DNA from: Kocuria sp.
Lineage (GTDB): Bacteria; Actinomycetota; Actinomycetes; Actinomycetales; Micrococcaceae
Assembly: GCF_030538595.1 (NCBI RefSeq)
Contig: NZ_JAUNTS010000001.1
Span: 317,112-381,111 of the forward strand
Length of the DNA: 64,000 bases
Direction: 5' to 3'
Part shown: one piece after another, positions 6,531 through 63,336 of the stretch
How the letters are laid out: the number at the start of each line of letters is the position of its first letter
How positions within the stretch are numbered: the first letter of the stretch is position 1
Translations under genes and position numbers: made by a program
The notes under the pieces: model-generated
What the model saw: the letters and a program-made list of their open reading frames with translations, nothing else
Database searches by the model: none
Told to the model about the DNA's origin: nothing

Positions 6531-7846
6531 GGGCGCCCACCGGTCACAGCCAATTCCGTGTCCGCCAGGATGGCCGCCAGGACAGTTTCCCAAGAGCGTT
6601 CCCGCACGGCCATGTCCCGCGCCGCTCGCCCCATGGCACGACGACGCCCAGGGTCCCCCACCAACTCGTCCACCGCACGTGCCAGGTCGGCGGGGTCGGA
6701 GGGTGCCACCAAAAGGCCAGTGACGCCGTCGTCGATGATCGCGGGGACTTGCCCCACCCGCGATGCCACCACGGGGAGGGCGGCAGCGCAGTATTCGTAA
6801 ATCTTCAACGGTGAAAAGTACTGATCCATGCTCTGTTCGGTGCGCGGATACGGAGCAACAGCCACGGCGCAGTCCATCAGGTGGTCCGGGATTCGGTCCG
6901 GTGCCACAGCGCCGGTGAACTCCACCTCAATCCCCAGCTGCCGGGCTTGATCGGTCAGGGATTCCCGTTGAGGGCCATCACCCACCAAGCGCAGCCGCCA
7001 CGCACGGGTGGCAAGAGCACGCGCCTGAAGCAGATGCTCCACGCCGTGCCAGGGCTTCAACGTGCCCACGAACACCACCGTTGGGACCCGCTCTGCGGAG
7101 GGAGAGTCCGCATGCGAATCGGGGCTGGTCGTAAGCGGACCGGGGCCAGTCACCTGCAGACCAGTGCCCGTCACCTGCGGATCAGGACCGCCGATCCCCG
7201 AGTCCAGTGACGGCCCGATCCGCTGCACGTTGACCCCGTTCGGTGTCACCACCACCCGCTCGGCCAGCTGCGCAGAAACCAGCCCACTGCCTGGCCCGGC
7301 AGTCGTTCGCACCCACTGGGCTACGGGCTCCGACACACACGCAATGCGCGTGGCAGCTCCCACCTGCCGGTCAAGTGCGGCATAGGCAGATTGCTGATCC
7401 ACCAAATCCCGATGAGTCCGCTGCTCGTCAATCAACGGCGCGTTGACCTCCAAGAAACCTGGCACGGACAAGGTCTCGGTGACCTCAGCCAAGGCGGTTG
7501 AAAACAACGAATAGCGTTCGTACACGGCATCCACACCCGCAGCGATCACTTGGGCCGCAATGGCCTGGGCGGCATGCTGCTGGGCCACCTCCCTGGCGAT
7601 CACGCGGGCTGTGCGGTCATCCTCGGAAACCTGCGCAGCGACGGCGGGAACTGCGGGCACGGGTACATGGACAACCTCCAGATCGGTCAAATCTGCGGGC
7701 ACCTGGTCCCCAATACGCGTGGCGTAAACCGTGACCTCCCACCCCATGGCCCGCCAGCACCGAATGATCTCCTGAACATGAACGGAAGCCCCCTTGGACC
7801 CGAACACCGGGATCCCCGGATCCGCACTGATGTAGGCCAAGCGCAT
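6527..7846 (-). CDS. GT4-type glycosyltransferase
   Basis: A 439-residue GT-B glycosyltransferase. The N-terminus MRLAYISADPGIPVFGSKG followed by a SVHVQEI segment is a typical acceptor-domain start. The C-terminal Rossmann half contains VVFVGTLKPWHG, a GDGPQRE segment and PLKIYEYCAAALPVVAS, which carries the conserved donor-binding E-x7-E-like region. ATG 7846 shares one base with the upstream gene's stop (TGATG); GTG 7849 is an alternative. A loop between the two domains holds four 7-codon degenerate repeats (7106-7189, GPDPQVT / GTGLQVT type), which are not part of the family fold. Donor and acceptor are unknown. Confidence 0.85.
   Translation of the reverse strand: MRLAYISADPGIPVFGSKGASVHVQEIIRCWRAMGWEVTVYATRIGDQVPADLTDLEVVHVPVPAVPAVAAQVSEDDRTARVIAREVAQQHAAQAIAAQVIAAGVDAVYERYSLFSTALAEVTETLSVPGFLEVNAPLIDEQRTHRDLVDQQSAYAALDRQVGAATRIACVSEPVAQWVRTTAGPGSGLVSAQLAERVVVTPNGVNVQRIGPSLDSGIGGPDPQVTGTGLQVTGPGPLTTSPDSHADSPSAERVPTVVFVGTLKPWHGVEHLLQARALATRAWRLRLVGDGPQRESLTDQARQLGIEVEFTGAVAPDRIPDHLMDCAVAVAPYPRTEQSMDQYFSPLKIYEYCAAALPVVASRVGQVPAIIDDGVTGLLVAPSDPADLARAVDELVGDPGRRRAMGRAARDMAVRERSWETVLAAILADTELAVTGGRP
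7106..7189 (-). repeat. 21-nt in-frame repeat in second glycosyltransferase gene
   Basis: Four units of 21 nt at 7169-7189, 7148-7168, 7127-7147 and 7106-7126, read on the minus strand as GPDPQVT, GTGLQVT, GPGPLTT and SPDSHAD. The first two share CTGCAGGTGAC-like sequence. The array occupies the interdomain loop. Confidence 0.75.
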
Positions 7847-9339
7847 CACTGAACACCTGCTCTCTGGGTTGGGCCGGACATTGGGGCATCGCTGCTTGTG
7901 GATGACACGTCGGGTACGGGCGGCAACTGTGTTGGAACGGGTGGTAATAATGCCCGCAGAGCGGCCGCCTGATGCTGCGAGTCAAAATGTGTCTCCACCA
8001 CCTCTCGTGCAGCACGGGTCACGGTGGCTCGGTCCCACCGCGGGTCGGCAACGGTCGTCAAGGCTTGAGCCAGGGATTCGACGACGCCGGGCTCCAGCAG
8101 GATGCCCGTCTGCCCAGAACCGTCAGCGTCACCACCGCGGATCACTTCCGGAATCCCCGTCACCCGCGTGGCAATCACAGGAACGCCCATGGCCATGGCT
8201 TCCAGAAGCACCGTGGGCAAACCATCCGCGTTGCCATCCGCCCCCACCACACACGGAGCCACGAACACGTCTGCCTGCCGCAGCAGCTCGCCCACTTCAC
8301 GCTGTGTACGCGGGCCCTGGAACTCAATCCGATCTGCCAGTCCCACCTCAGACACAAGCTCCTTCAGCTGTTGATCGCGCTCCCCTCCGCCGGCGATGGT
8401 GACCCGCACCTCCAATCCTGCACGGTGTGCCACCGCCGCTGCGCGGATCAGGACGTCAAAGCCCTTCTTCTCCACCAGACGCCCCACCCCCACCACATGC
8501 AGCGGGCCGCTGGGGTTCGACGGCGCAGCGTACGGGAATCTGCTCAGTTCCAGTCCGTTGTAGACCAGATGCACCTTCTGCCCAGCGACTGACCGGAAGA
8601 TCTGAAAATTACTGCTGAGGAAACACCGGTTGTACCGGGAGATGGTGACCACGTGGTCAGCGTGGCGGAAAGTGCGCTCCAGCCGCGGGTGACTCACGGA
8701 TTCGTGGAACAAGTCCTTGGCATGTGTGGTCACGGAGTACGGCACACCGGTCAACCGGGAGGCAATTTCAGCCACCTTGACGGAAAGATTGGCAAAGTGA
8801 CAGTGCAGATGGGTGATGCCGCGGTACACCACCGAACACGCCAGCTCAATGCCCTGATGCACCTCAGAAGCCTCGGTCTCAGCCAAATCCGGCAACAACC
8901 GGGCCAAGCGCAGACCAAAGTCCGGAATGATCCGCTGGGCGCGGGCCATCACTTCCCATGCCTCGGAAGCCTTGAACGGTCGGGGGACATATGTCAGCGG
9001 GGCCTGAACCCGAGCCAGTTCCGGATGAAACCGCGGGTCAGTGGAATGCCGCAGGGCAAAGATCTCCACCTGCTCGCCCTGAGCTTCCCGTGCCAGGATC
9101 TCCGTGACAATGAAGGTCTCCGAAAATCGCGGGTAGACCTTGAGCACATAACCGATGCGGTGCTGACCTGCAAAGCTGTTGTGCTGAGCTTCCGAGCTGC
9201 TGGGCTGAACTTCTGGGCTGCTGAGCTGACCGTCCGGGTTCCCGGGCTGGCCACCAGAGTTCCCGGGCTGGCTATCTGGGCCACCGTGCTGATCTTCTGG
9301 GATGCCGGACCAGGAACCAGAGTTACCGTGCTGGGTCAT
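7846..9339 (-). CDS. GT4-type glycosyltransferase with repeat-rich N-terminus
   Basis: A 497-residue GT-B glycosyltransferase. The catalytic part begins at about residue 60 with IGYVLKVYPRFSETFIVTE, a start common to GT4 enzymes of exopolysaccharide type. It continues through HCHFANLSVKVAEIAS, VVGVGRLVEKKGFDVLI and the donor-site segment GLPTVLLEAMAMGVPVIAT. ATG 9339 overlaps the upstream stop codon as ATGA. Residues about 15-60 are 6.5 heptad units of a Q-x-G/S-x-P/S pattern (9160-9297), low-complexity sequence that the family does not need. It belongs to the five-gene glycosyl/export operon; the polymer or glycolipid made is unknown. Confidence 0.85.
   Translation of the reverse strand: MTQHGNSGSWSGIPEDQHGGPDSQPGNSGGQPGNPDGQLSSPEVQPSSSEAQHNSFAGQHRIGYVLKVYPRFSETFIVTEILAREAQGEQVEIFALRHSTDPRFHPELARVQAPLTYVPRPFKASEAWEVMARAQRIIPDFGLRLARLLPDLAETEASEVHQGIELACSVVYRGITHLHCHFANLSVKVAEIASRLTGVPYSVTTHAKDLFHESVSHPRLERTFRHADHVVTISRYNRCFLSSNFQIFRSVAGQKVHLVYNGLELSRFPYAAPSNPSGPLHVVGVGRLVEKKGFDVLIRAAAVAHRAGLEVRVTIAGGGERDQQLKELVSEVGLADRIEFQGPRTQREVGELLRQADVFVAPCVVGADGNADGLPTVLLEAMAMGVPVIATRVTGIPEVIRGGDADGSGQTGILLEPGVVESLAQALTTVADPRWDRATVTRAAREVVETHFDSQHQAAALRALLPPVPTQLPPVPDVSSTSSDAPMSGPTQRAGVQ
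9160..9297 (-). repeat. 21-nt in-frame repeat in glycosyltransferase gene
   Basis: About 6.5 units of 21 nt. The translated units are EDQHGGP, DSQPGNS, GGQPGNP, DGQLSSP, EVQPSSS, EAQHNSF and AGQH, with Gln fixed at the third position. CAGCCCGGGAAC is repeated exactly in two adjacent units. Confidence 0.85.
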
Positions 9340-10523
9340 TTCCGCTGTGCTCCTTCCAACCGGGGGCTGGGAGCCAGCGTGGCGGCTGCCAACTGAGCAA
9401 CGGTGTGCAGACCGCTGAGGTCCACCTGGTGGCGCAGCTTGACGGTTCCCACCACTGCCCGCAGCCACGCGGAGATGGCCTGCGGTGTGAGGTCTTGGAG
9501 ACGCAGAACGTCCACCGCCCCGGTGCGAGCCAGGGCCTCGGCCCGGATCAGCTGTTCCAGCCGGGGTGTTTCCCGCGGCACAATCAGGGCGGGAGTATTG
9601 GTGGTCAAGATTTCAGTCACGGAGTTGTAGCCACCCATGGAAATCACGGCATCGGCTGCCATCACCTCCACCAGTGCATCCGGTACGGAAGCCACCACGG
9701 TGGTCCGCTCCCCTGCCATGGATTGGATGCGTTGCACCTGGGCGGGCGCCATCTGCGGGCCGGCGATCACCAGGTGGCGGTATCCGTGCGGTACACGCGC
9801 CCGGACTGCCGCGCTGAGGAGGTCAACGCCGTCGGACCCACCGCCTGCCATGGACACAATGTAGGGGCGGCTCATGCCGGAGGTACGTTGACCCACGGGT
9901 CGCCCGGCGGCCAGGTACCCGGTGTGCTGAACCATGTCCGCCAGCTGCCCGGGAATCTCACCACTGATCAGAGGATCGTGGACGGTGCGGTCACCGTAGA
10001 CCCAGATGTGGTCGTACACCGAGCGGAAATGCCCGAGCGCGCCCACCTTCTCCCATTCGCGGGCCGCCACGGATGGGGTGTCCAGTACTTCCCGTAGACC
10101 CAGCACAATGGTGGTCTCCGGGAACTGGGCCCGCAGGCGGGTCAGCGGTGCCTCCAGTTCACGGTCAACACCCCACGCATGCCGGTCTATGACCACCAGA
10201 TGTGGTTTGAATTCCAGCAGGGCGGCCTCAATGAGACCCGAACGCAAAGCGGTCAGGTGCTCCATTCCCACTGCCAAACTGCGGGGGCCGTACCGGCCGC
10301 TGTCCTTGGTGACTCCGGGCAGCACCACCGCGTCAAAGCCCCGGGGCTTGTGGCGAATCGCAGCAGAATCGACGCCGGTCAGCAGCAATCCGGTCACCGG
10401 ACGCCCCACGAGCTGGGGCAGACTGTTCGCCAACGCGTGAGCCAGAGCCACGTTGCGACGGGTGTGACCCAACCCCTGGGAGTCATGCGAGTAAAAAACC
10501 ACCCGCACTTCTTGGCTGTCCAT
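9336..10523 (-). CDS. GT28/MurG-like glycosyltransferase
   Basis: A 395-residue protein, first gene of the operon. The N-terminus reads VRVVFYSHDSQGLGHTRRN, the G-x-GH loop typical of GT28/MurG-like transferases. The C-terminal half contains IVSMAGGGSDGVDLL and an AVISMGGYNSVTEIL donor-binding glycine motif. ATG 10523 (MDSQEVRV) is preceded by GAGGGG seven bases upstream and was preferred over a longer frame. The product may glycosylate a lipid or small acceptor that the later GT4 enzymes extend. A perfect 12-bp inverted repeat lies about 110 bp upstream and could be an operator. Confidence 0.8.
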   Translation of the reverse strand: MDSQEVRVVFYSHDSQGLGHTRRNVALAHALANSLPQLVGRPVTGLLLTGVDSAAIRHKPRGFDAVVLPGVTKDSGRYGPRSLAVGMEHLTALRSGLIEAALLEFKPHLVVIDRHAWGVDRELEAPLTRLRAQFPETTIVLGLREVLDTPSVAAREWEKVGALGHFRSVYDHIWVYGDRTVHDPLISGEIPGQLADMVQHTGYLAAGRPVGQRTSGMSRPYIVSMAGGGSDGVDLLSAAVRARVPHGYRHLVIAGPQMAPAQVQRIQSMAGERTTVVASVPDALVEVMAADAVISMGGYNSVTEILTTNTPALIVPRETPRLEQLIRAEALARTGAVDVLRLQDLTPQAISAWLRAVVGTVKLRHQVDLSGLHTVAQLAAATLAPSPRLEGAQRK

Positions 10524-10634
10524 ACCCGTCCCCTCGCTCCTCCGGCATGTGCCGCTGTGCTGTTCAGTCCAGTGGCACAGACTCATCAACGTCTGAAGCC
10601 TCCACTGTGCTCACAGGAGATGATGAGGATATGA

Positions 10635-10664
10635 GCACTTCATGAGGACGTTCTCATGAAGTGC
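10635..10664. promoter_or_regulatory. Perfect 12-bp inverted repeat upstream of glycosyl operon
   Basis: GCACTTCATGAG at 10635-10646 is repeated in inverted form at 10653-10664 with a 6-base spacer. It lies between the stop of the response regulator gene and the start of the glycosyltransferase operon. No T tract follows on either strand, which argues against a simple intrinsic terminator. An operator for a dimeric regulator or an mRNA stem is possible. Confidence 0.5.
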
Positions 10665-13232: not shown

Positions 13233-13262
13233 ACCGGCAACGGATGTGCCGGCCGGTAGCCC

Positions 13263-20382: not shown

Positions 20383-23163
20383 TCAGCTGAGCCGAACCCA
20401 GCCCTGCGGTGTCCAGAGCCACCAGCCGCCGGGGCCTTGGCCCTGGCCCGGAGTGGCATTCTCCCCCTGTCCCGGGTCCTGCGTGGTGGTATCCCTGGGG
20501 CCTACAGCATCCTCGTCCGTGTTGGTGCTGTCTGAATCATTCGTGGTGGCGTCTGCCGTGTCTGTACTGTCCGCGGTGTCTGTGCTGTCCGCTGGGGTGC
20601 TCTCAGGGGCCGTTGGATCAGCATCAGTGGAATCGGTGGCTGAATCGTCCACGGGCTGGACAGGCTCCGCCGGTTCGGCCGGCTCTACTGGGTCTACTGG
20701 TTGAGCTGCTTCGGTCGACTCGGGCGTGGAGTCATTACCCGTCTCGCCACTGTTGGAGGTGGGCTCCGGCTCGGATGCCGTGGGCTCCTGGTCCGGAGCG
20801 GGTTCCGGGGCAGTGCCCAGATCAGTGGTTGGTTCCGGATCAGCAGTTGGTTCCGGATCAGCCACGGGGGCAGGGTCGGCAGCTGGTTCCGGATCTGCGC
20901 TTGATTCCGGCTCAGTGGTCGGTTCCGATTCAGCGGGTGAGACGCGCTCGGGGCTTGAGGCGGCTCCGGCGTCGTCACCTGCCGTGGAGTCCTCAACGGC
21001 CGACGAATCCTCGACCGCAGGGGTGCCAGGCACCGCGGGGGCAAAGTTGGTCGCAGGGGAGGATTCGATCGGTGCCGATGTTTCAGGGGCACCGGGAGCC
21101 ACCGGGGTCGCAGGCGCACTGGGGACTGATGGCACGGGAGGATCAACGGTGGGATCAGCTGTGCCCGGTTGGGCGGGTGCTGTGGGAGTGGTTGTCTGCG
21201 GCGGCGCCACCGGGCTGGTAGGAGCTGCGGGCTCAGGAGCAGTCGGAGCCAGGGGCGTGGTCCATGTGGGAGCCGGCAGAGACCCTGAGTTCTGCTGCGG
21301 CACATTGGGAGCCCAGGGAGTTGGCCGAGTCCCGGACTGCGGGTAGCCAGATTCCGTGGCCGCACTGTAGCTGGTCCCGGCCTGGCCAAAGGACAACAGA
21401 CCGCTACCGCCTTGGCTCTCGGCGGACTGCTGCGCTCCAGAAGGTTGCTGCCCAGCGGAAGGCTGCCCGAATCCGGCGGAGGTATCGCCGCCACCGCCAT
21501 CCGATCCACCAGCCATGTCCGGTCCGGCAGCTACATCTGTGTCGCGGTTTTGGGCCCGGTCCAAGGCGGTGATGAATGACGGCTCGCTCGGGGCGTCGTC
21601 GTCGTTGACAGCACGCATCTGAGTGGCGCCGGGGACCTCCGGCTGCTCCGGGTCAGTTGCGGAGTCGGAATTGCCCGAGGGCACGGAGGTGGCTGCGGTG
21701 TCCCCGGAATCCTCCGGAGTCACGTTTCCGTTGGCCGGGAAGGGAAGGCCGCCCAACGTGGTGGAGTTGTTGGTGCCATCGTCCTGAACCAGTGTGCTGA
21801 CCCCAACGCCCACCAGGGCCACGGCTGCAGATGCGGCAACCGCGCCCACCGCGATTTTCAGTCCCAGTCCCGCACCTGCTCCGGCAACCACTCCCGTGAC
21901 CCCGGCGCCACCTGACCCGCTGTTGGCGGTGGAGGCAGACTCGCCCGCCGGCCCGGTGGCGCTTGCAGCGGAACCGGCACTCACGACGTCGTCGGGCGCC
22001 GTTGCATCCCCCGCTGCGGCTGTGGTGGCAGGGTCAGCATGAGATGCTGCGGCCCCGTTGGCTGCGGCACCCTCACTGGTTGCTGCGGCCCCGTCGGTTG
22101 CGGGAGAGCCCGCCGCATCTGCGGTCCCAGCCACTGTGGCCTGAGTTCCCGTGGTGACACCCGCCAGGCCGCCGGTACCGGAAACCATCAGCGCAGCCAG
22201 CACCTTGGACTCGGTTCCCCACAGCGGCAACGCGGCCAGGGCAGGCAGCAGCCAGGTGCGCATACCCACTCCAGTGTCTTGCAGCTGAAGGTACTCGGCC
22301 GTGCAGCGCGGGCAGGAATCCAGATGCTGCTGAACCTCGCGGCGAGCCCTTGAGCCCAAACTGCCTTGAACAAAGGCACCCAGCTCTCCGGCCACCTCCG
22401 GGCAGGAGGCTGTGGCGGCGTGTGAAACCTGCGCTTGGAGATAAGCGGCTTGCAACCCTTCCCGGGCGCGCTTGGCCAGGGCAGAAACGGCATTGGGGGT
22501 CATCCCCAACAGACCTGCCACGGCCCGCGGCTTCATCTCCTCCACTTCCGTGTGCCATAGCACCGCTTGCCAGCGCTCCGGGAGGGAGGCAAAGGCGTTG
22601 GCCACGGTGATGGAGTCGCACTGTTTGACCACGACGTCGTCAAAATCTTGCGGTCGGTCCAGGACCGTGTGCTCATCCACCGGCCGAATCTTGCCGGTGC
22701 TGACCGCATGATCCACCGCCAAGCGGCCGATGGTGGTGACCAAGTAACTGCGCATGAACTTCTGCGGCCCACCACCGCTACGAATCACCGCCAACACCTT
22801 GGCAAAAGCCTCGGACACAAGGTCCTCGGCGTCGTGAACATTGCGGGTGTGCATGCGCGCCACATTGAGCGCCGTGGAGCGGTGCCGTTCGTAGAGCACA
22901 CCGTAGGAGGATTCATCCCCTGCCCGGACAGCCTCCAGCAGTTGCTCATCGCCCACGACAGAGGGGGCGTCTTCTACGGAGCCGGCCTGCGACGTCGCCC
23001 CCTGGTTCACGTCCGAAGGCTGTGGCTCCGCTGCGGGAGCCTCGGCATGGGGAGCCTGCGCGTAGGAGGTTGCGGTATCCGCTTGGCCGGGGGTGGGCAC
23101 GGCCGGGGAGGCGCCCGTCTGGTCGATCTGGGGCGGGGACTGTGAATCGCGTGGGGCTCCGAT
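20383..23163 (-). CDS. ECF sigma factor fused to zinc finger, membrane helices and long extracytoplasmic tail
   Basis: A predicted 926-residue fusion. After a Pro/Ala/Gln-rich leader, sigma region 2 lies at about residues 85-155 ([20 protein letters not shown]) and region 4 at 193-246 ([19 protein letters not shown], then [20 protein letters not shown]). A zf-HC2-like zinc finger with H-x3-C-x2-C (HLDSCPRC) follows at about 254-287. Hydrophobic segments lie at about 303-330 and 426-459. The last 450 residues are Thr/Pro/Glu-rich with [10 protein letters not shown] repeats and a terminal [15 protein letters not shown]. The protein thus merges sigma and anti-sigma-like parts on one membrane chain. 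The start is set at ATC 23163, seven bases after AGGAGGAGG and downstream of a good promoter; no ATG or GTG fits. Confidence 0.75.
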
Positions 23164-23221
23164 GGCGCAGCCTCCTCCTAACAAGCATCCTGGGCGGGCA
23201 GGTATACCCGCGAGCCTCCCT

Positions 23222-23250
23222 AGTCTACGTGCCGTGCGGTAGCCATCCAA
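23222..23250 (-). promoter_or_regulatory. Sigma-A-type promoter of the ECF fusion gene
   Basis: On the minus strand TTGGAT (23250-23245) and TAGACT (23227-23222) are separated by exactly 17 bases. Transcription would begin about 23214, leaving a leader of about 50 bases that contains the AGGAGGAGG ribosome binding site. This places earlier in-frame TTG codons upstream of the transcript start. Confidence 0.55.
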
Positions 23251-23384
23251 GGCGCTTGACCTGGGTAAATAATCATCCAGCCTTTGCCCAGCCAAAGATC
23301 AGTGAACTTTCCTGTTGGACGTACCCGGCGATTCCGGCCCCTGGGTTACGGTGGCTGAAGGCACGTCAACATTCAGGAGGAATC

Positions 23385-40890: not shown

Positions 40891-40975
40891 TCCCATCGCG
40901 CTGCCAGATCACCGCCCACAACGTGGGAACTCGGCGAGTTCGTGGGAGGTCAACCGCTGAGTGGGAGCTCGGCAG
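40891..40975. repeat. Dispersed palindromic repeat, copy C
   Basis: Shares an exact 28-base block (40900-40927) with 29034-29061. It continues with GTGGGAACTCGGCG, a sequence close to copy A (GTGGGAAGTCGGCG at 13181). The stem symmetry of copy B is lost here. Its right part overlaps the last codons of menD (stop at 40950-40952), so the repeat has contributed or been absorbed into the MenD C-terminus. Confidence 0.55.
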
Positions 40976-42878
40976 CCGCCGCGGCAACGGCAGCCTTGAT
41001 CCTGGCACTCATGGACCGTAGACCCTCCCGGCTGGCCGGAACGACGACGACCGACACCCCGGCACGCGGCTGCGCCAGAGCACGGTGTAGATCTTGCACC
41101 GTGGTGACCGTCTCCACGGCCACGCCGTAACCGGCACACAGAGCAGGAATGTCCACGGCGGGTTCTGTGCCGAAAAAGCGTTCCACGGTCTCAGCCCATT
41201 GAGGCTGTTCGCCCAGCGCACCGTGTTCCAGAGTGTTGAAAATCCCACCTCCACGGTCGTCAAGCACCACAATCTGCAGATCAGGCTGGGTTTCGTGCAC
41301 CAGACGGATCAGAGACCCGGCGTCGTGCAGGAACGTCACGTCCCCCATCAGGGCTCGCACGCGACGCCCAGTGGCCAGAGCAGCGCCGGCTGCGGTGGCC
41401 ACCGTTCCGTCAATGCCGGCAAGTCCCCGATTGGCCATCACGGTCACGCCGCGGTTCGGCTCGGTCCCCCCTGCGGGAGTCTGATCCGCCGCCTCCATAA
41501 AGCTCTGACCCGTCTGCCCCAGATAGCTCGGACCCGTCTGCCCCGCAGAGTTCTGAGCCGCCTCCCCTACAGCGGCCCATGGATCAGCACACAGGTCCAG
41601 ATCCCGAATGGGGTTGGAGGAACCTGCCACCAGCGGTGCGCCATCCCTGAGACAGGCTGCCCACACTTCACGGGCCACCACGGGACCGGGAAGTACGCCG
41701 GTCGTTGCGCTCACCACCCCATCCGGCATCGCCTGCGGTTGGGGCTGCTCAGGCAGGGCAAGTTCGTGATTGACGGCGCGTTGCGCAGCCGCGCCCAGAC
41801 GTTGCCACGCCCCCAGCCAACCCTGCGGTGGGCGGCCAACAAAAGCGGTGACTTCGGTGAGTGTGCGCAACACGGTTTCACGGCGTCGGCCGGGGTCGTA
41901 CCACGCCACCTCACGCGGCTGCCAGGCCGCCGTCTGCACGTGGCACCGTGCCAGTAGGGCACCCACCGGACGGGACAGTGTGGGGCGACCGATCAACAGC
42001 ACGCGTTCGATCTGGCTCCCCAACTCGGTGTCCAGCAGCAGCCGGTACGGGCCCACCGCGTTAGGTCCGTACCGAGCATTCGAGGATGGCTCGGCCAGCA
42101 GCGGAAGACCCAGGGACTCCGCCAGTAGCCTGGCCCCGTCTCCGGCACCGTCCCCGGCCAGGATCACGGTGGACCGCGGGGGGTGCTCACTGCCCTCCCG
42201 GCGCAGAAGTGCTTGCGACAGGTGGGCTGGCACAACGCTCACCGCAGAACAGGGTTTCAGCTCCGCCGGTTGCCACCTCTGCGGTGGGGACTCGATATGA
42301 GTGGCTGCCACATGGTCCAACGCCGGTTGTAGGGGTTCACGCAGCGCCACATTGACGTGAACGGGACCGGGCACGTGGGCGTCGTCGTCGTGAAGGGCAG
42401 CGAGCACAGGTTCCAAGGCCGACTGCACCCGGGCGGTGATCTGTTGTGCCTCCGCCCCCTGATCCACCACCAGATCCACGCTGTCCCGAACGTGGTCGCC
42501 AAAGATCCCCGGCTGCCGGGTGGTCTGATTGGCACCGGTCCCCCGCAATTCCGGGGGACGATCCGCGGTCAGCAGGACCAGGGGGACCTGCGCGTGATCA
42601 GCTTCCATGGCAGCGGGCATCAGATTGCCCACAGCGGTCCCGGACGTGGTCACCACCACCGCGGGACCGCCGGTGACCTTGGCCGCACCGAGGGCGTGGA
42701 AAGCAGCCGAACGTTCATCCAAACGGACATGAGTGCGCAGGTCAGCGCCATCGCGTTCGGCGGCGGCATACACGAATGGCGCCGAACGCGAGCCAGGGCA
42801 GAAGAAAAATTCACGTGCACCGGCAGCAACCAATTGGTCCAGGACGGCGGCGGCGGTCAGCAGGGATTCGGCGGTCAC
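40950..42878 (-). CDS. menD: SEPHCHC synthase MenD
   Basis: A 642-residue thiamin-diphosphate enzyme joining isochorismate and 2-oxoglutarate. The start has REFFFCPGSRSAPFVYAA, and TTSGTAVGNLMPAAMEADH with PLVLLTADRPPELR identifies MenD. The cofactor-binding end has GDVTFLHDAGSL. Between residues about 440 and 475 an insert of four 8-codon units (AGQTGPSY, LGQTGQSF type, 41477-41572) interrupts the conserved sequence. The protein is longer than the usual 550-580 residues, partly because of this insert and acidic/Ala loops. Its C-terminus overlaps a dispersed repeat. ATG 42878 is the start; monocistronic. Confidence 0.92.
   Translation of the reverse strand: MTAESLLTAAAVLDQLVAAGAREFFFCPGSRSAPFVYAAAERDGADLRTHVRLDERSAAFHALGAAKVTGGPAVVVTTSGTAVGNLMPAAMEADHAQVPLVLLTADRPPELRGTGANQTTRQPGIFGDHVRDSVDLVVDQGAEAQQITARVQSALEPVLAALHDDDAHVPGPVHVNVALREPLQPALDHVAATHIESPPQRWQPAELKPCSAVSVVPAHLSQALLRREGSEHPPRSTVILAGDGAGDGARLLAESLGLPLLAEPSSNARYGPNAVGPYRLLLDTELGSQIERVLLIGRPTLSRPVGALLARCHVQTAAWQPREVAWYDPGRRRETVLRTLTEVTAFVGRPPQGWLGAWQRLGAAAQRAVNHELALPEQPQPQAMPDGVVSATTGVLPGPVVAREVWAACLRDGAPLVAGSSNPIRDLDLCADPWAAVGEAAQNSAGQTGPSYLGQTGQSFMEAADQTPAGGTEPNRGVTVMANRGLAGIDGTVATAAGAALATGRRVRALMGDVTFLHDAGSLIRLVHETQPDLQIVVLDDRGGGIFNTLEHGALGEQPQWAETVERFFGTEPAVDIPALCAGYGVAVETVTTVQDLHRALAQPRAGVSVVVVPASREGLRSMSARIKAAVAAAAAELPLSG
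41477..41572 (-). repeat. 24-nt in-frame repeat in menD
   Basis: Four units of 24 nt. The two central copies, AGCTCTGACCCGTCTGCCCC at 41501-41520 and AGCTCGGACCCGTCTGCCCC at 41525-41544, differ at one base. Outer units are more diverged. Period is eight codons. Confidence 0.8.
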
Positions 42879-42949: not shown

Positions 42950-45178
42950 TCAGCCATCCGTGTAGGAGCGCGGGGCGTTACGCGCTTTGTTGCGCAGCTC
43001 CTGAGTGGAGCGCCCCCGATACCCCTGGCGCTGGGGACCGCGCCCATTGCCGGGCCCACGGCCCTTACCATGGCCACGGCCTTTACCTCGTCCCTTGCCC
43101 TTCCCGGGGTGCTGCTCCTCCTCCACGAACGGAGGCTCCCCTGCGGCCGTGGAAAAGACCTGGACGACGGCGGGGCGGGCAATCGCAAACTGGCCTTCAC
43201 CTTCCCGCGTGGGCAACACGTAGTCCGGGAAGTAGGAACGCGGCACCTCAAAAGTGCCGTCCTCCCCGGGGTGCTGAACAGCCACGTACACCATGTTTTC
43301 GCGGTCGTGGATCACCGGACCGCAGGTCTCCGCATCCTGTGGCACGGAGAGGAACTGTTGGGTACGCCCCCGCAGCTCACCCGTGAGATCCACGCGGAAC
43401 AAGCCGTCGTTGTACCCGATGGTTCCGGGTGCGCCGTCGGTGGAGATCCACAGGTGCCCCTGAGAATCAAAAGCCACGTTGTCCGGGCAGGAGATCGGTG
43501 ACACTTGATCCGTGGGAAATCCGGAGAAATAGGCGGAACCGTCCTTGGCCGGGTCACCGCAGACCAGCAAGATGTCCCAGTGGAAGGTGGTGCCTGCCGA
43601 GTTGGCGGTGTCCTCCGTGATTTCAATGACGTGACCGTCACGGTTGTTGTTGCGCGGATTGGCTTCATCCGCACCGGCACGCCCGGACTCACCACGACGC
43701 GTGTTGTTGGTACAGGCCATGTAGACCTTGCCGGTGTGGGGGTTGGGCTCCACGTCCTCTGGTCGGTCCATTTTGGTGGCACCGGCCTTGTCAGCGGCCA
43801 GACGGGTGAAGATCAGCACCTCGTCCACGTCCATGCCCTCAATCTTGGACTCACCGCCCACCACCAGCGGCAGCCATTCACCCGCTCCGTCAAAAGCACC
43901 GTCCGCCGGGAGACGGCCGGAACCATCAATCTCATCTTCCGAGTTGCCGGTGAACTTGGCCACGTAAAGATCGCCGAAGGAGAGCAGAGTCATGTTGTGG
44001 GTGCGGTCACCTTCCACATACTTCTTCTCCGAGACGAACTTGTAGAGGTAGTCAAAGCGCTCGTCGTCCCCGGAGTAGGCCACCACGGTGCCATCGGCTG
44101 CCACGTACACGTTGGCGCCTTCGTGCTTGAACCGGCCCATGGAGGTGTGCTTGACCGGGGTGGAGCTGGGATCGGATGGGTCGATTTCCACGATGTAGCC
44201 AAACCGATTGGGCTCATTTTCATAACCCGCATTGTTGCCGTCCCAGCGGGGATCCACCAGGTCCCAGCGCCGCCTGGGAGGCTCGGCCGGGATGCCGTAG
44301 CGCCGATTCTCAGCGGTGTCCGGACCGGAGAGGACGTTTTGAATGTTCTCCTCCCCGGACAGGATGGTGCCCCAGGGAGTCACACCGCCGGCGCAGTTGT
44401 TCTGGGTGCCCAGAACGGTGGTGCCCTCCGGATCGGCCACGGTCTTGAGCAGATCGGAACCAGCCGCCGGCCCGTCCACGCGGAACGGAGTTTCTGCGGT
44501 GATACGCCGGTTGCGGGCTCCCCCGCGCACGTAGGTCCAGGGTTTGCCGGGGCCTTCACGCACCATCTCCACCACGGCCATGCCGTGCGCTGCAATACCC
44601 ACGCTGGCTGTGCGCTGCAGGTCTTCGCTCTGATCGGACGGAAACATGGTGTTTTCATTGGTGTATTCGTGATTGCACACCAGCACACCGGTGGTGCCAT
44701 TGGCATCCGGCATGATGTCCAGGTAGTCGTTGTTGAACCCGAACTGCATGGCTTGGGCTTCGGCAGTTTGGTTACGGGGATCAAACTCCGGGGAATCTTC
44801 AAACAGGGGGTCTCCCCAGCGAATGATCGGGGACCAGTTGTAATTCGTGGGCACGTTGAGGTCATCCACGGTGGCCGCAACGGGGGCGATCGGTTCAAAG
44901 TCCAGTGACCCGTTGTTGGCGCCCCAGTAGGCAAAGGTTGCTTGCGCTTCGGTGCGGGTACCAGTCACGGCCACCCCAACGGTCACTGCGCCGGCAGCAC
45001 CAAATCCCAGCGCCGCCCGCCGAGAGAGCGCAGTGGAGGCCACTTCATGAAACGTGGAGTTGTCGGAGGTGTTGCACACCGGTTTGGCGCACTGGGAACC
45101 GCACTTCAATGCGCAGGTCAGTGGACTGCGTTTGCCATTGGTGTGTCCCAGCATGGGCAGAAGGAGTCGAGCCATCAT
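42950..45178 (-). CDS. PhoX-family secreted phosphatase
   Basis: A 742-residue protein of the PhoX (DUF839) family. The twin-arginine signal is STALSRRAALGFGAAGAV at about residues 48-66, after a Cys-containing N-region. The catalytic domain includes GVLVCNHEYTNENTMFP, GTILSGEENIQNVL and ISTDGAPGTIGYNDGLF. Members are calcium- and iron-dependent alkaline phosphatases exported folded by Tat. A Lys/Gly-rich segment (KGKGRGKGRGHGKGRGPG) lies near the C-terminus. GAGAGGTA precedes ATG 45178. The AT-rich 180 bases upstream may hold a phosphate-regulated promoter; no PHO box was certain. Confidence 0.87.
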   Translation of the reverse strand: MMARLLLPMLGHTNGKRSPLTCALKCGSQCAKPVCNTSDNSTFHEVASTALSRRAALGFGAAGAVTVGVAVTGTRTEAQATFAYWGANNGSLDFEPIAPVAATVDDLNVPTNYNWSPIIRWGDPLFEDSPEFDPRNQTAEAQAMQFGFNNDYLDIMPDANGTTGVLVCNHEYTNENTMFPSDQSEDLQRTASVGIAAHGMAVVEMVREGPGKPWTYVRGGARNRRITAETPFRVDGPAAGSDLLKTVADPEGTTVLGTQNNCAGGVTPWGTILSGEENIQNVLSGPDTAENRRYGIPAEPPRRRWDLVDPRWDGNNAGYENEPNRFGYIVEIDPSDPSSTPVKHTSMGRFKHEGANVYVAADGTVVAYSGDDERFDYLYKFVSEKKYVEGDRTHNMTLLSFGDLYVAKFTGNSEDEIDGSGRLPADGAFDGAGEWLPLVVGGESKIEGMDVDEVLIFTRLAADKAGATKMDRPEDVEPNPHTGKVYMACTNNTRRGESGRAGADEANPRNNNRDGHVIEITEDTANSAGTTFHWDILLVCGDPAKDGSAYFSGFPTDQVSPISCPDNVAFDSQGHLWISTDGAPGTIGYNDGLFRVDLTGELRGRTQQFLSVPQDAETCGPVIHDRENMVYVAVQHPGEDGTFEVPRSYFPDYVLPTREGEGQFAIARPAVVQVFSTAAGEPPFVEEEQHPGKGKGRGKGRGHGKGRGPGNGRGPQRQGYRGRSTQELRNKARNAPRSYTDG

Positions 45179-46402: not shown

Positions 46403-46620
46403 GACCACCACCCTATGCGCGGCTCAGCGCACGTTTGCCGGGTGCTCAGGCAATCCCCAGACTTTGCGGTTTACGGCCTGAGAATGTCAGCGGACTCGAA
46501 GGCTGGGCTGGCACACTGAGCGTCAAATATCTGCGTGGCGGAACGATCCACCCGCTGCGCAGCAAGTTTTTGCTGGCCGGCCCCCGTGTCGGCCGCGGCT
46601 GAGCCGTACGCCAAACCCAT

Positions 46621-46678
46621 GTGGCCAGATCTGAACCTATGTGGCCACAGCTGAACCCATGTGCCCAGACCTCAACTA
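46621..46678. repeat. 20-bp tandem repeat, three copies
   Basis: Three direct units of period 20: GTGGCCAGATCTGAACCTAT (46621-46640), GTGGCCACAGCTGAACCCAT (46641-46660) and a GTGCCCAGACCTCAACTA unit (46661-46678). The unit before 46621 (ending AAACCCAT) is related at its 3' end. It lies between divergent menC and the PAP2 gene. The period is not a multiple of three, so it is probably not coding. Confidence 0.7.
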
Positions 46679-46961
46679 GGACCCAGTTACCAACATCCCC
46701 GCCGAGAACGACCCCGAGACCCCTCAGCGTTCCCGGGCCCGCGGCGGTGCGGAAGAAACCCCTACTGAGGCGATCACCACGCAGAAGAGCCAATCATCAC
46801 AGGCTGGCAAGTCATCTTCTCAGTCTGGCCATCCTTCACTTCTGGGCCTATCATCACAGGCTGGCCACTCATCTTCTGGCCGCGCCTGGCAGGGGGATCG
46901 GTCCGGTTCGGAAGCGGGGGGCGGTGACACCCAACAGATCAGCGCTTCCTCGGACCCCACG

Positions 46962-57265: not shown

Positions 57266-57723
57266 AGTCTGGCAGGCCGGGGTTCTCCGCATATGAGCTC
57301 GGGCTCTTTGTATAGAGGCTTGGGCTCTTTGCATTGGGGACCGGGCTTCACTGCATTAAGGGCCGGGGGCTGTCTGCAAAGAGCCTGGGGTCGGCGTCGG
57401 GGCTGTGGCGCTGCTGGAGGTCCGCTGTCAAGGACACACTGGTTGAGTGTGGTTGCGGAACTCTGGTGGGGGCGCAGTGGCGGAGGGGCCCACTGTCGAG
57501 CTCGCAGATTGTGGGCAGTGCCAGTGGGGGAATCAAAACAGTAATCGGTGGCTGCGGCCCAGGCTGGGCACGGTCGAGGTCGCATGTGCCAGTGCCAGTG
57601 CCAGTTTAAGCAGCGCGTGCTGGCTGCATCGCTTGATCACGTTTTGGTGACTTTGATGGTGAATGTGACGTTTGGTTGTCATTTAACCCTTGTGTTGTCT
57701 GACCCCCTTGGAAGACTTGATTC
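57266..57723. other. 458-bp divergent intergenic region with simple repeats
   Basis: Separates divergent hrpB and the HNH gene. GGGCTCTTTG recurs at about 57301 and 57325, and the hexamer GCCAGT is tandemly repeated three times at about 57588-57605. The last 100 bases before the HNH gene are noticeably AT-richer and likely contain its promoter. No gene was supported on either strand. Confidence 0.45.
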
Positions 57724-60180
57724 ATGGCACCGAACAAAGGCCACCAGGAGGACGACTCCACAGGCCAGCTCCCACTTCCACCGCTGACACCGGCGCAGCC
57801 GGACGCAGCGGCCAGGGGCGTGGTCGGAGAGCACAACCGTGCAGAGACGAACAACACCAACGCCGTTCTTGATACCGGCCGTGCAGGTCTGGATGCCAGT
57901 TGTGCGGGACCTGCTAGTGGCTGTGCGGATCTTGATGGCCGTTGCACAGATCATGACGGCTGCTCCTCGGGCTCTGACAGCAGTTGCGGACGTCTAGATA
58001 GCAGCCGCGTAGGAGGCGCTGCACCTGCCCAACCGTGCAGCGCATCAAATCTCCCCGCACCAAGCACCGCCCCGGGTTTCGCCCCCGGCGGCATGGCAGA
58101 CACTCTAGGGACCACACATCAGCGCGCGCCCCATGCCCCATCAGGCACTCCTTCAGATACTCCCGAACTAGCTTCTGTTCTGGAATCACCGGAGACCACA
58201 GCATTTCGGCGCCGCCATTTTTCAGCAGCGGATGTTGAGCCGGAAGACCTGAGAGAACAGGCGGCCTCCCTGGTCACCGGGATGCAGATGGACGTCTCCG
58301 CAGAGGCTGCTGCTCGGGGACGAATCCTGCGTCAAGCGGCCGACCTACATCTGATCACGCTGCGGGCAACTTTCCGTGAGGCTCAGGAGCAGCGGGAAGT
58401 TCTTCAACGGCGCCCCGGTGGCACATCTCCCCGAGATGTGGACTCGGCAACGCTCACAGAAATCCAACGTTGGGCTCAGGAGGACGCCCGCAGCATGGTG
58501 GTCGGTGAACTTGAATTGGCTCTCAAACTCCCCCGCGGGTCCGCTATGGAACTCTTGCGGCAAGCCCTGGTCCTGACCCAGCACCTGCCCCATGTCTTGG
58601 AACAGTTGGAGGCAGGTCAGTTGCTGTGGGATCAGGTGAAGGTGATCCTCAATCAGTGGTCGTCACTGACTGAAACCCACTTTCCGGACTGCACCCATCA
58701 TCTGTCTGCTCTGAACACGTCGCAGACGCTGGCGGGCACTGAAGTTGGTGATCTGTGCGACGTCGCCCCAGACGCCGATCCACCGGAGACCCCCGGAACG
58801 GCTCCAGTGGATGAGTCTGCTGAGGCAGATGCCAACAACACCGGGCACCACCTCACTGGTGCAACGTCATCCGCATCAGCACTTGAGCCGCCACCGGCGC
58901 CTCTGGGCCGATTCCAAGCGGCTGGGGAACGTCTGGTGGTGGACATGATGGAGCGTGCCCAGCAGTGCGGGGCAGCCAAACTGAATGCTTACGGGCATCG
59001 TCGTCGTCATGCCATGGGTGCACCGGCTCAGGCACGGGCGCACCAGAATGCCAAGCGGCACCGGGGCGTCTGGGTGGAACCGGAGGACGATGGTATGGCC
59101 CACCTGCATGCCATCTTGGATGCAGCCACAGCCCTTGCCGCCTGTGACCGCATTGATCGGTTGGCCCAGAACCTCAACGATTCCCCCGGTAGCGCGACTG
59201 CCACCTCTGATGACCACCAGGCCAATGCACCTAAAGGCGCATATGAAGAAGACACCCGCAGTGGTGAGCCAGTGCGTCGTGGGATCGGGGAACGCCGGGC
59301 AGATGTCTTGGCCGACCTCCTGTTGGAGGCCGAACCGTCGCAGAAATCAGAACTGCCGCGTGGCATTCGGGGTCAGGTTTCCGTGATTGTTCCGGTGGAG
59401 CACTTGGTGGCAGCTGATCCCACGCTCGTCAAAGACAACAAAGGGTCGGCTCCCGGACCGGCTCGGCGGGTTCCCGCCACGGATGCGGACACTGCCGCGC
59501 GGTCTGAAGGTAAATCGTGGCAAGCCGAATCGCCCGAGTTGATTGGATACGGGCCTATTTCACCGCTGACGGCTGTGGAGTTGGCCTCCGGAAGTGCATC
59601 CTGGAAGCGGTTGTTGCTGGACCCCGGCACCGGGGAGATCACCCAGTTCGGGAGACAGTCCTACAAAGTTCCCGCTGGTCTACGACGTCAACTGCAGATA
59701 CGGGATGCCACCTGTCGTTTCCCGGGTTGCCGCCGCGCGGCTGAGCGGTGCGATGTTGACCATGCTCTCGCCTGGGAGGACGGTGGCACCACGGACGCTG
59801 AGAACCTGGCACATCTGTGCCGTGCGCACCATCTGCTCAAACACCAAAACGGTCCATTCGGCTCGTGGCACGTCACGCCACAGCACGTTTTGCCCCAGGA
59901 ATCATGGGGAACGTCTGCGCCAGATAACCACAGTTCGCCCACGAACAATGTCGGGTCAGCCATGCCCAGCCCTGGCAATGACGGCAGCCCTGCCAACGGT
60001 GCCAACGGTGCCAACGGCATTATGTTCACATCGCCGTTGGGTACAACACGGCACAGCAGCGTGGAACATTCGCTGTTCGCCACCAGCGACTCGGCAACCA
60101 GCGGCATCGACAACGCCAGTGGGAACTCAGAAGCCGCTACAACACACGATGTCTTTCCCGAGGACCCACCCCCGTTTTAG
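57724..60180 (+). CDS. DUF222/HNH endonuclease domain protein
   Basis: An 818-residue protein of the actinobacterial 13E12/DUF222-HNH type. Helical DUF222 sequence covers about residues 180-470 (ARGRILRQAADLHLITLRA). The HNH nuclease is near 665-710: CRFPGCRRAAERCDVDHALA, then GGTTDAENLAHLCRAHH, with the zinc-binding Cys pairs and catalytic His. These are multicopy genes in many actinobacteria with unknown biological role. Residues 48-96 are seven 7-codon degenerate repeats with recurring L-D and Cys (57865-58011). The C-terminus is Ser/Asn-rich with GANGAN repeats. GGAAGA precedes ATG 57724. Confidence 0.87.
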   Translation: MAPNKGHQEDDSTGQLPLPPLTPAQPDAAARGVVGEHNRAETNNTNAVLDTGRAGLDASCAGPASGCADLDGRCTDHDGCSSGSDSSCGRLDSSRVGGAAPAQPCSASNLPAPSTAPGFAPGGMADTLGTTHQRAPHAPSGTPSDTPELASVLESPETTAFRRRHFSAADVEPEDLREQAASLVTGMQMDVSAEAAARGRILRQAADLHLITLRATFREAQEQREVLQRRPGGTSPRDVDSATLTEIQRWAQEDARSMVVGELELALKLPRGSAMELLRQALVLTQHLPHVLEQLEAGQLLWDQVKVILNQWSSLTETHFPDCTHHLSALNTSQTLAGTEVGDLCDVAPDADPPETPGTAPVDESAEADANNTGHHLTGATSSASALEPPPAPLGRFQAAGERLVVDMMERAQQCGAAKLNAYGHRRRHAMGAPAQARAHQNAKRHRGVWVEPEDDGMAHLHAILDAATALAACDRIDRLAQNLNDSPGSATATSDDHQANAPKGAYEEDTRSGEPVRRGIGERRADVLADLLLEAEPSQKSELPRGIRGQVSVIVPVEHLVAADPTLVKDNKGSAPGPARRVPATDADTAARSEGKSWQAESPELIGYGPISPLTAVELASGSASWKRLLLDPGTGEITQFGRQSYKVPAGLRRQLQIRDATCRFPGCRRAAERCDVDHALAWEDGGTTDAENLAHLCRAHHLLKHQNGPFGSWHVTPQHVLPQESWGTSAPDNHSSPTNNVGSAMPSPGNDGSPANGANGANGIMFTSPLGTTRHSSVEHSLFATSDSATSGIDNASGNSEAATTHDVFPEDPPPF
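57865..58011 (+). repeat. 21-nt in-frame repeat in HNH gene
   Basis: Seven units of exactly 21 nt, in frame, translating as VLDTGRA, GLDASCA, GPASGCA, DLDGRCT, DHDGCSS, GSDSSCG and RLDSSRV. Nucleotide identity between units is partial (GGCTGTGCGGAT, GGCCGTTGCACA), so the array is old or diversifying. Confidence 0.8.
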
Positions 60181-60863: not shown

Positions 60864-61862
60864 GTGACTGATGCAGCCCAAAACTCCTCGCAGCCCACCG
60901 GTGTTTCCGCTGGAACCACTCTCCCCCACCAGGTCTCTCAGACCTTCGATCCCACCCAGTGGCATGAGGTGGACGGCTTTCAGAACCTTGCAGACATCAC
61001 CTATCACCGCGCCGTCGAACGCGATGACGCAGGCAGGATCACCAAGGACTTGCCCTGGGTACGCATCGCCTTCGACCGCCCGGAAGTCCGCAACGCCTTC
61101 CGCCCCGGCACGGTGGATGAGCTCTACCGCACCCTGGATCACGCTCGAATGTCCTCAGACGTGGGCGCCGTTCTGTTGACCGGCAACGGGCCATCCGAGA
61201 AGGACGGTGGCTGGGCCTTCTGCTCGGGCGGCGACCAGCGCATTCGCGGCCGCGACGGCTACCACTACGCCGATGGCGAGACCGCCGAGTCCATTGACCC
61301 CGCCCGGGCCGGTCGCCTCCACATCCTGGAGGTCCAGCGCCTGATCCGCACCATGCCCAAACCCGTGATCGCCATGGTCAACGGCTGGGCGGCCGGTGGC
61401 GGGCACTCGCTGCACGTGGTCTGCGACCTCACCATTGCCTCCCGCGAACACGGCAAGTTCAAGCAGACAGACGCCACCGTCGGTTCTTTCGACGCCGGAT
61501 ACGGCTCAGCACTCCTGGCCCGTCAAGTGGGACAAAAGTTCGCCCGCGAAATCTTCTTCCTGGCCCGCGAGTACAGCGCCGAGGACATGCTCCGCATGGG
61601 CGCCGTCAACGAGGTGGCCGATCACGCCAACCTGGAAAACCTGGGGATCGAATGGGCCAAGATGATCTGCCGTCAATCCCCCCAAGCCATCCGCATGCTC
61701 AAATACGCTTTCAACCTTCCCGACGACGGCATGGTCGGCCAACAAGTCTTTGCCGGCGAGGCCACCCGCATGGGCTACATGACCGATGAAGCCGTGGAAG
61801 GCCGCGATGCCTTCCTGGGTAAACGCGACCCTGACTGGTCCAACTTCCCCTACTACTTCTGA
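60864..61862 (+). CDS. menB: 1,4-Dihydroxy-2-naphthoyl-CoA synthase
   Basis: A 332-residue crotonase-family enzyme. The oxyanion-hole segment is WAFCSGGDQRIRGRDGY, followed by VNGWAAGGGHSLHVVCDLT and the MenB hallmark VGSFDAGYGSALLARQVG. The C-terminus has RDAFLGKRDPDWSNFPYYF. It closes the second ring of the naphthoate nucleus from o-succinylbenzoyl-CoA. GTG 60864 fits the expected length; an in-frame ATG at 60765 inside the repeat array was rejected. First gene of a probable menB-menE-menA operon. Confidence 0.93.
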   Translation: MTDAAQNSSQPTGVSAGTTLPHQVSQTFDPTQWHEVDGFQNLADITYHRAVERDDAGRITKDLPWVRIAFDRPEVRNAFRPGTVDELYRTLDHARMSSDVGAVLLTGNGPSEKDGGWAFCSGGDQRIRGRDGYHYADGETAESIDPARAGRLHILEVQRLIRTMPKPVIAMVNGWAAGGGHSLHVVCDLTIASREHGKFKQTDATVGSFDAGYGSALLARQVGQKFAREIFFLAREYSAEDMLRMGAVNEVADHANLENLGIEWAKMICRQSPQAIRMLKYAFNLPDDGMVGQQVFAGEATRMGYMTDEAVEGRDAFLGKRDPDWSNFPYYF

Positions 61863-61938
61863 GCCAGCGCCAGTTCGCAGTGAGCGCCACCAATTTCGAG
61901 CCCACCACAACCAGCCCACACACACCCGAGCAGCATCC

Positions 61939-63336
61939 GTGAACCTCGACACCCCCCACACCTCCGCTCTCCCGCGGGACACAGTCATTTTGGACGGCCC
62001 CGAGTCAGTCACCCGCGCCGGTGGTGTGACCGGTCTACTCTCGGCCTTCCAGGAGGTCTTGCAGAGGGAGGGGCCGGCGGTCGTCGTCGCAACTTCAGGT
62101 AGCACCGGGCGACCCAAACGGACCGTGCTGAGCACCCACGCCCTGAAATCCTCTGCACAAGCCACCGCCGAGCACCTGGCCGCCATGCTCCGGCACACCC
62201 ACCATCAGCCGGACCATCAGCTGAGCAGTCAGCCCAGTCACAATCCCGACCAGCGTCACAGCCAAGTCCCAGAACTCAGCCACGGCCAGCAGCTCAGTCA
62301 GGCCCAGCCCCCCAGTCCCGACCAGCAGCTCGGCCACGGCCAGTGGCTGCTGTGCCTCCCCCCGTTTTATGTGGCCGGCGTACAGGTGCTGATCCGCTCG
62401 GTCATCGCCCGCACCACCCCCGTGGTTCTGCCGGACGGCCCCTTCACCGCGCAGAACTTTGTGACGGCAGCCGCCCGCATGACCCACCCCCAACGGTTCG
62501 TCTCCCTGGTCCCCACCCAACTCCAACGCCTGGTGGACGCCGCCCCAAACCCCACAGTCCGCCATACACTGCGCTCGTTCACCGCGATCCTGCTGGGCGG
62601 ATCAGCCGCCACACCCCACCTCCTGGAGGCTGCACACGCCCTGGGTGCCAACGTGATCACCACGTACGGCATGTCGGAAACGGCCGGCGGCTGCGTTTAC
62701 GACGACCTCCCTCTCCCCGGCGTGTCCATTCACCTGGAACACACCGCCGACGACGACGCCACCTCCCCCGGGCGGATCTGGCTGGGTGGCCCCATGGTCA
62801 CGGATGGCTACCTGGACGACCCCGCTCAGACGCACCGTTATGTCTTCGATCGTCTGCCGGATGGCGTCACCTCACCTTCCATGACCCCAACTGCACCACT
62901 CGACCCCGCGACCCGTTGGTACCGCACCGATGATCTGGGCGTCCTCACCACATCCCCCAGAGAATCATCCCCACGCCTGCGGGTGATCGGTCGCGCAGAT
63001 GACGTGATGGTGACCGGTGGGGTCAAGGTTTCCGCCGGTGTTCTCCGCAATCTCATGGTGGCTCACCCGGGGGTGCGCGACGTCGTCGTCGTTCCGGTGG
63101 CAGACCCCCAGTGGGGGCAGAGGATCGTGGCTGCACTGGTGCCCGCTAAAGGCACGAGCACAGGCACAGGCAGCGCAAGCCTCCAGGAGGAACTGCGCCG
63201 ACTGGAATCAACCATCCGCCAAGAACTCGGTCCGGCCGCCGTCCCCAAACAATGGCTGTGGGTCCCAGAAATCCCCCTCCTACCCACCGGCAAACCGGAC
63301 CGGGCAGCGGTGATGGAGCTGTTCGTGAAAGAATGA
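61939..63336 (+). CDS. menE: o-Succinylbenzoate-CoA ligase
   Basis: A 465-residue acyl-adenylate-forming ligase. The ATP-binding P-loop is VVATSGSTGRPKRTVLS, the adenine motif TYGMSETAGGCVYDD and the hinge region YRTDDLGV. The catalytic Lys is near the end in LLPTGKPDRAAVM. A 48-residue Gln/His/Ser/Pro-rich insert (62201-62343) separates the P-loop region from WLLCLPPFYVAGVQ and is absent from the family core. GTG 61939 was chosen, 76 bases after menB. It supplies OSB-CoA to MenB. Confidence 0.91.
   Translation: MNLDTPHTSALPRDTVILDGPESVTRAGGVTGLLSAFQEVLQREGPAVVVATSGSTGRPKRTVLSTHALKSSAQATAEHLAAMLRHTHHQPDHQLSSQPSHNPDQRHSQVPELSHGQQLSQAQPPSPDQQLGHGQWLLCLPPFYVAGVQVLIRSVIARTTPVVLPDGPFTAQNFVTAAARMTHPQRFVSLVPTQLQRLVDAAPNPTVRHTLRSFTAILLGGSAATPHLLEAAHALGANVITTYGMSETAGGCVYDDLPLPGVSIHLEHTADDDATSPGRIWLGGPMVTDGYLDDPAQTHRYVFDRLPDGVTSPSMTPTAPLDPATRWYRTDDLGVLTTSPRESSPRLRVIGRADDVMVTGGVKVSAGVLRNLMVAHPGVRDVVVVPVADPQWGQRIVAALVPAKGTSTGTGSASLQEELRRLESTIRQELGPAAVPKQWLWVPEIPLLPTGKPDRAAVMELFVKE
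62201..62343 (+). repeat. In-frame low-complexity repeat in menE
   Basis: CCCGACCAGC recurs at 62245 and 62317 (72 nt apart), and GCCACGGCCAG recurs at about 62279 and 62333. The encoded pattern is D-x-Q-L-S/G with intervening PS and HG steps. Distances are multiples of three, keeping the frame. Confidence 0.7.

Follow-up and report, generated by a model that had tools for sequence, protein, structure and literature searches.

Several conserved enzymes encoded in a 64,000-nucleotide stretch of the Kocuria sp. genome (C12:317112-381111, hereafter the window; the genome comprises 3.14 Mb in 27 contigs) contain degenerate tandem arrays that keep the reading frame. We consider it likely, with a probability of roughly 75%, that these inserts arose by repeated local tandem duplication of each gene's own sequence, were filtered by the reading frame, and persist in the enzymes as neutral filler. 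This reading is built on a frame filter, a preference for certain periods, the absence of the inserted segments from relatives, the lack of a common repeat unit, and native flanks in register with the units at three of four loci.

Tandem Repeats Finder returned 21 rows for the window, and a frame-aware self-match scan of the window genes, called with our own codon-likelihood ORF caller, returned 23 rows with a period divisible by three (3n) and none with any other period at a score of at least 16. Together, both approaches recovered degenerate arrays at about the places named in the original prediction, with periods of 15, 18, 21, and 24 nt, and the units follow each other head to tail at 3n periods within reading frames. 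Chance, or codon-bias self-similarity of a GC-rich genome, could in principle produce such arrays, as high-GC relatives are rich in low-complexity arrays, some of which survive shuffling. However, 30 codon shuffles of the window genes gave only 0.43 3n rows and 0.03 rows with other periods at the same score threshold, which confirms the predicted 3n excess and rules out chance as the origin of the window arrays; the empty insert sites of relatives point the same way, and we assign this explanation a very small probability. Species-specific core inserts of at least 10 residues with repeats (score of at least 14) were found in 4 of 40 aligned genes of the window versus 3 of 264 in eight relatives (Fisher P 0.007), a comparison that is biased, as the repeats were the reason for choosing the window, and that leaves out three inserts of relative G003 (one frameshifted-looking ORF; two scored 14 and 15).

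One clean case is menE (61786-63336, plus strand), in which the self-match scan and the alignment of relatives revealed an insert at 62182..62331 and an 18-nt array at 62259-62348. The insert comprises 50 residues (133-182) and ends at the native GHGQWLLCLP. The search covered 26 other genomes, one of which (G006) was left unaligned; all 25 aligned congeners have zero residues at this site, their ATxxx motif being directly followed by GxGQWLL. In the AlphaFold model, the insert follows a helix (117-139) and shows mean pLDDT values of 41-55 in blocks 141-180, while the core is mostly confident and residues 1-49 also remain below 50. The second clean case, the glycosyltransferase gene GT4a (7846-9468, minus strand), has units at 9148..9336 and a 21-nt array at 9160-9301 in the self-match scan. 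According to the codon listing, nine 21-nt units follow immediately after the ATG at 9339, which is preceded by the Shine-Dalgarno-like sequence GGAAGGAG. The encoded protein thus begins with MTQH, continues with the in-register units, and proceeds to GQHRIGYVLKV, so that the first unit (TQH...) carries the native TQH and the native N-terminus forms the last unit (GQHRIGY). Starts without an array are found in K. subflava (MTQHRIGY, in the protein start MTQHRIGYVLKV) and in G004 (MSQHKIGYVLK), and 11 aligned orthologues have other sequence before the domain as judged by eye. In both genes, a new protein segment seems to have been built from the gene's own codons in one species, the relatives' site being empty.

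In menD (40950-42878, minus strand), an insert of 32 residues (444-475; 41454..41549) with a 24-nt array at 41480-41572 is missing in all 28 aligned homologues, which stem from 27 of the 38 other genomes searched (the fragments L024 and L032 and the paralogue L002 were left out). In the structure 5erx, which we take to be a MenD of the M. tuberculosis type, just three residues lie between the two matched stretches that flank the insert site. The closest relative by MenD, Kocuria subflava YIM 13062, and G024 possess unrelated repeats of their own in a different MenD loop (DSDMQDSDMQ and TDTGRADTGRAD). Furthermore, K. subflava has a strong 19-nt array right after its menD (C101:32819-32895); at the matching place of the window, neither Tandem Repeats Finder nor the array scan listed an array near the menD end. 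A second glycosyltransferase gene, GT4b (6527-7849, minus strand), has a 21-nt array at 7109-7185, and its insert of about 29 residues (7112..7198) is missing in five of six aligned relatives, with a short related piece (LEAQVTDPA) in the sixth, G024. The tandem kinase gene (2102-4840, minus strand; 15-nt array at 2511-2587) has an insert of 22 residues (761-782; 2495..2560), and each aligned relative with coverage of this site either lacks it or has a much shorter one. The arrays had been predicted to occupy places where the respective families normally have no sequence, and this applies to menE, menD, the tandem kinase, GT4a, and GT4b. It does not apply to hrpB (54518-57334, minus strand), where an 18-nt array at 55534-55581 sits in a loop that varies in length in all aligned species.

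As the inserts are limited to one species among the aligned genomes, insert-bearing alleles could have been acquired from another lineage by horizontal transfer. However, the genes lie within a block common to the relatives, and the best-scoring relative for menD, menE, and GT4a is K. subflava, so that we hold transfer to be hardly probable. Concerning copy number, menE and menD each have one full-length match in the Kocuria sp. genome among the matches listed.

Two further genes require separate treatment. The gene at 57724-60180 (plus strand) contains a 21-nt array at 57862-57981 by the self-match scan; its designation as HNH-type was made by the earlier reader, and it has no NCBIfam match. 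An orthologue was found in the syntenic stretch of only one of eight relatives (K. subflava, 50% identity), where it carries other arrays. The gene has a low GC3 of 0.62 and repeats near both ends. The second is the PAP2 frame, a family name also given by the earlier reader, with an array at 46789-46877 (best period 57 in the array scan). This array was predicted to be a coding SQAGKSS repeat, which we could not confirm, as it lies upstream of the first usable start codon at 46962, before which the frame contains no other ATG, GTG, or TTG. In relatives, the corresponding segment follows a GTG start (VT[YF]IPAE), which is present in five of five relatives and reads GTT in the window. Judging by this codon, the start of the relatives has apparently been lost from the PAP2-family gene of the window. 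An intergenic array with a period of 20 nt (46614..46676) is located just 5' of the lost start codon.

The origin of the units was addressed by comparing them with the native flanks at four loci. One flank was in register with the array in menE (GGCCACGGCCAG versus an inner unit, 11/12; 0.0008 of random codon blocks as good), GT4a (10/12; 0.002, unrounded 0.0022), and menD (left flank, 9/12; 0.003, unrounded 0.0032), while the opposite flank of each had no match, and neither flank of the tandem kinase matched its units significantly; these fractions, from eight flanks and one shorter repeat test, are uncorrected, and borders were set after viewing the sequences. A blind, register-free search for units in the flanks of relatives gave no significant result, as random segments were as good at fractions of 0.059-0.49 for menE, 0.59-0.95 for GT4a, and 0.47-0.98 for menD, with the K. 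subflava menD site picked wrongly. All-versus-all comparison of 126 arrays from 1.06 Mb gave 10 unordered pairs below an E-value of 1e-3 and 41 below 0.05, compared with about 9.5 and 33 in the reversed control, so that neither a common ancestor of the units nor a dispersed minisatellite family could be substantiated. The lowest E-value of the reversed control was 5e-10, and an isolated low value therefore means little for sequences of such biased composition. Because native flanks are in register and no common unit emerged, we read the arrays of GT4a, menE, and menD as local tandem duplications.

The contrary view is that the arrays belong to a dispersed family of minisatellites or selfish elements that inserts in frame, comparable to the Rickettsia palindromic elements, which insert in frame within genes. 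Several enzyme arrays do share peptides rich in Q, G, S, P, and H. Within the array set, the menE array matches an array on the opposite strand of L103 (75% over 63 nt, E 2.6e-6), GT4a matches menE at E 0.003, and a clear relationship exists between two intergenic arrays of L260 (E 2e-17); genome-wide, GT4a and menE cross-match at E 5.7-6.3. However, array pairs are about as frequent as in the reversed control, native flanks are in register with the units, and genome-wide searches with the GT4a and menE arrays found no close second copy, the best other matches reaching E 0.0018 and 0.07, respectively. Among the arrays of 1.06 Mb, no related copies at many loci were found, be it of a dispersed or of an in-frame selfish family. 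We therefore regard a dispersed family as very improbable. The Rickettsia elements likewise add DNA in frame inside genes, but they constitute a dispersed related family, whereas the Kocuria arrays each seem to come from their own locus. As a separate observation, a short intergenic sequence recurs in the Kocuria sp. genome (L260:8884-8950 and 4633-4702 on C18, with matches on C15, C3, C23, C22, C25, and C27). Its 14 match rows (E < 0.05) are spread over seven contigs and include some adjacent opposite copies, so that it may represent a dispersed intergenic element; when three mismatches were allowed, a 25-base part of this sequence still had no counterpart in the window.

Comparison of periods inside and outside genes over 1.063 Mb of the genome, with all genes again called by our own ORF caller, revealed a strong frame filter. 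In total, 69 of 77 coding arrays have 3n periods versus 20 of 45 intergenic arrays (Fisher P 1.2e-7; four further arrays lie on borders), where a different codon model divides the same genome into 73 coding and 49 intergenic arrays. The ratio of coding to intergenic array density is 0.52 for 3n periods (95% interval 0.31-0.90) and 0.05 for other periods (0.02-0.11). These numbers support a single repeat-generating process whose products are mainly tolerated in genes when they keep the frame, and the quantitative core of the original prediction thus holds. The tolerance of genes towards tandem insertions can be read directly from the data, namely about half of the intergenic density in frame and about a twentieth otherwise. 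Intergenic periods (score of at least 13) were distributed over 8-16 nt (20 arrays), 17-24 nt (34), 25-34 nt (2), 35-42 nt (10), and 43-60 nt (5), with fewer than one array per bin in shuffles, a mode at 19-20 nt, and none at 25-28 nt. The commonest coding periods were 18 nt (19 arrays) and 21 nt (15 arrays). Since simulated detection improves with period, the intergenic drop above 24 nt is real rather than an effect of detection, and short periods are under-counted; the lower edge of the peak near 20 nt may be a detection limit.

The window also contains low-complexity tails and linkers, which we treat as a separate class. These are a tail with WDDDD (15 nt) and PAPA (21 nt) repeats at 1558..1748 (gene 1554-2024, minus strand), repeat linkers at 20551..22103 in a sigma-70/ECF-containing protein (20383-23295, minus strand), and a GKGRG C-terminal tail with an 18-nt period at 43034..43105 (gene 42950-45178, minus strand). 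The protein encoded at 20383-23295 has 970 residues, an ECF sigma-70 domain, and long, acidic, proline-rich repeat linkers that differ among six aligned relatives. Mismatches between units fell on the three codon positions 38, 67, and 55 times in seven enzyme-type arrays (third position 55/160, P 0.80 versus one third) and 33, 38, and 90 times in five tail or linker arrays (90/161, P 4e-9). The two patterns differ (Fisher P 1.3e-4), with the assignment to either type made by us after viewing the sequences, and the WDDDD, PAPA, GKGRG, and acidic linker repeats accordingly do not form one class with the enzyme-type arrays. Across all coding arrays pooled, mismatch was highest at the third position (0.25, 0.27, and 0.41). 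From their mismatch patterns, the enzyme-type arrays look like neutral filler and the tails and linkers like selected low-complexity protein.

This distinction bears on the idea that the inserts are selected as useful disordered loops, linkers, or interaction segments. The third-position excess in tails and linkers would fit selection, as would the frame being kept in genes with one full-length copy among the matches listed. However, the enzyme-type arrays lack this excess, the segments are absent from aligned relatives, and the coding 3n density is about half of the intergenic density and not higher. Selection for function is thus an unlikely explanation of the enzyme inserts.

Regarding the genomic context, the rest of the sampled genome beyond the window has 5.9 coding 3n arrays per 100 kb, which is lower than in 12 of 13 other sampled genomes. 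Values per 100 kb were 1.0 in G004, 11.5 in K. subflava, 10.6 in G001, 20.7 in G024, and 25.8 to 72.7 (G021) in the other nine, with densities of genomes above 70% GC inflated by low complexity; a masked N run in L097, counted as an array in one early scan, was excluded from later cross-genome counts. A genome-wide elevation in Kocuria sp. is therefore ruled out. G004, a 2.3-Mb congener with about 58% GC, had one coding and no intergenic array in 116 kb (L061-L064, L227, and L228). Within Kocuria sp., the window is a local cluster, with 11 array clusters, whereas the 45 clusters of the other 999 kb would predict 2.9 (P 2.1e-4, or about 0.010 after correction for 49 windows, counted with all 52 other stretches). 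The syntenic stretch of K. subflava contains ten 3n arrays in 67 kb versus none in 60 kb elsewhere, and several of them fall in the same genes (hrpB and the orthologue of 57724-60180), which may point to repeat-prone genes rather than a regional hotspot as the source of this richness. The process had been called active, and near-identical units are a feature of active VNTR or contingency loci; among arrays with periods of at least 12 nt, units were at least 95% identical in none of 64 coding arrays and in 2 of 39 intergenic ones, each species being represented by one genome, which gives no sign of current activity.

With local duplication as the preferred reading, the following sequence of events may be envisaged. 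At a terminus or within a surface loop, replication slippage or template switching would copy about 15-24 nt of the gene itself, and repeated rounds would build an array; point mutations would then make its units diverge and its deletion difficult. Between genes, this process would be free to use any period (mode 19-20 nt), while selection in genes would purge frame-breaking arrays and leave mainly 18 and 21 nt, along with 15 and 24 nt. The new enzyme segment would be neutral and probably disordered filler, and the insert-bearing enzymes would presumably retain their function. A more tentative possibility, which we rate as rather doubtful, is a sequence-blind duplication tuned to a length of about 20 bp, equal to two helix turns, and to a lesser extent near 40, that acts genome-wide and is turned into 18- and 21-nt codon blocks by the frame. 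If so, new loops of conserved enzymes would be added in steps of six or seven residues from the gene's first or neighbouring codons. Should the 20-bp step be the footprint of a DNA-bound protein (polymerase, recombinase, or nucleoid protein), the distribution of sizes could contribute to its identification.

The original prediction knew of no named system of this type, but related repeats are in print. In Legionella pneumophila, all unit lengths of intragenic tandem repeats are divisible by three, which was taken as reading-frame selection, and the table rows give unit identities of 72.9-88.9% (PMC2639597). The Kocuria arrays share the 3n unit lengths within genes; unlike in that study, which deals with strain variation, they include inserts in central enzymes of one species only, and coding and intergenic densities are compared. 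In a partial literature collection, we found no paper that joins in-frame tandem repeats and Kocuria. Regarding mismatch repair, actinobacterial NucS leaves indels uncorrected (PMC8228993), which fits slippage; as this blindness is phylum-wide and concerns short indels, it explains nothing specific to the Kocuria arrays. Subirana and Messeguer described prokaryotic satellites, many of which, especially those with long repeats, are coding with periods that are multiples of three (PMC6749651). In two species, the same survey found noncoding satellites that form families and have been transposed, which we did not see among the Kocuria arrays. These authors also defined a class of bacterial repeats of 20-21 nt, equivalent to two helix turns, with constant size and variable sequence, also in Actinobacteria (PMC8161180). 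Kocuria matches this class in constant unit size and variable sequence (intergenic mode 19-20 nt), although periods of 8-16 nt account for 20 of 71 intergenic arrays. According to PMC8161180, those repeats are mostly noncoding and form species-specific families with short conserved motifs, whereas the Kocuria arrays have no common unit by overall similarity and the same size class also occurs in genes, as 18 and 21 nt. The arrays are real and of a known kind, of which they are clean examples, and we see in them no new mobile family and in the genome nothing exceptional. Their common size preference of about 20 nt, intergenic and coding alike, joins the noncoding 20-21-nt repeats and the coding 3n repeats, which are separate classes in PMC8161180.
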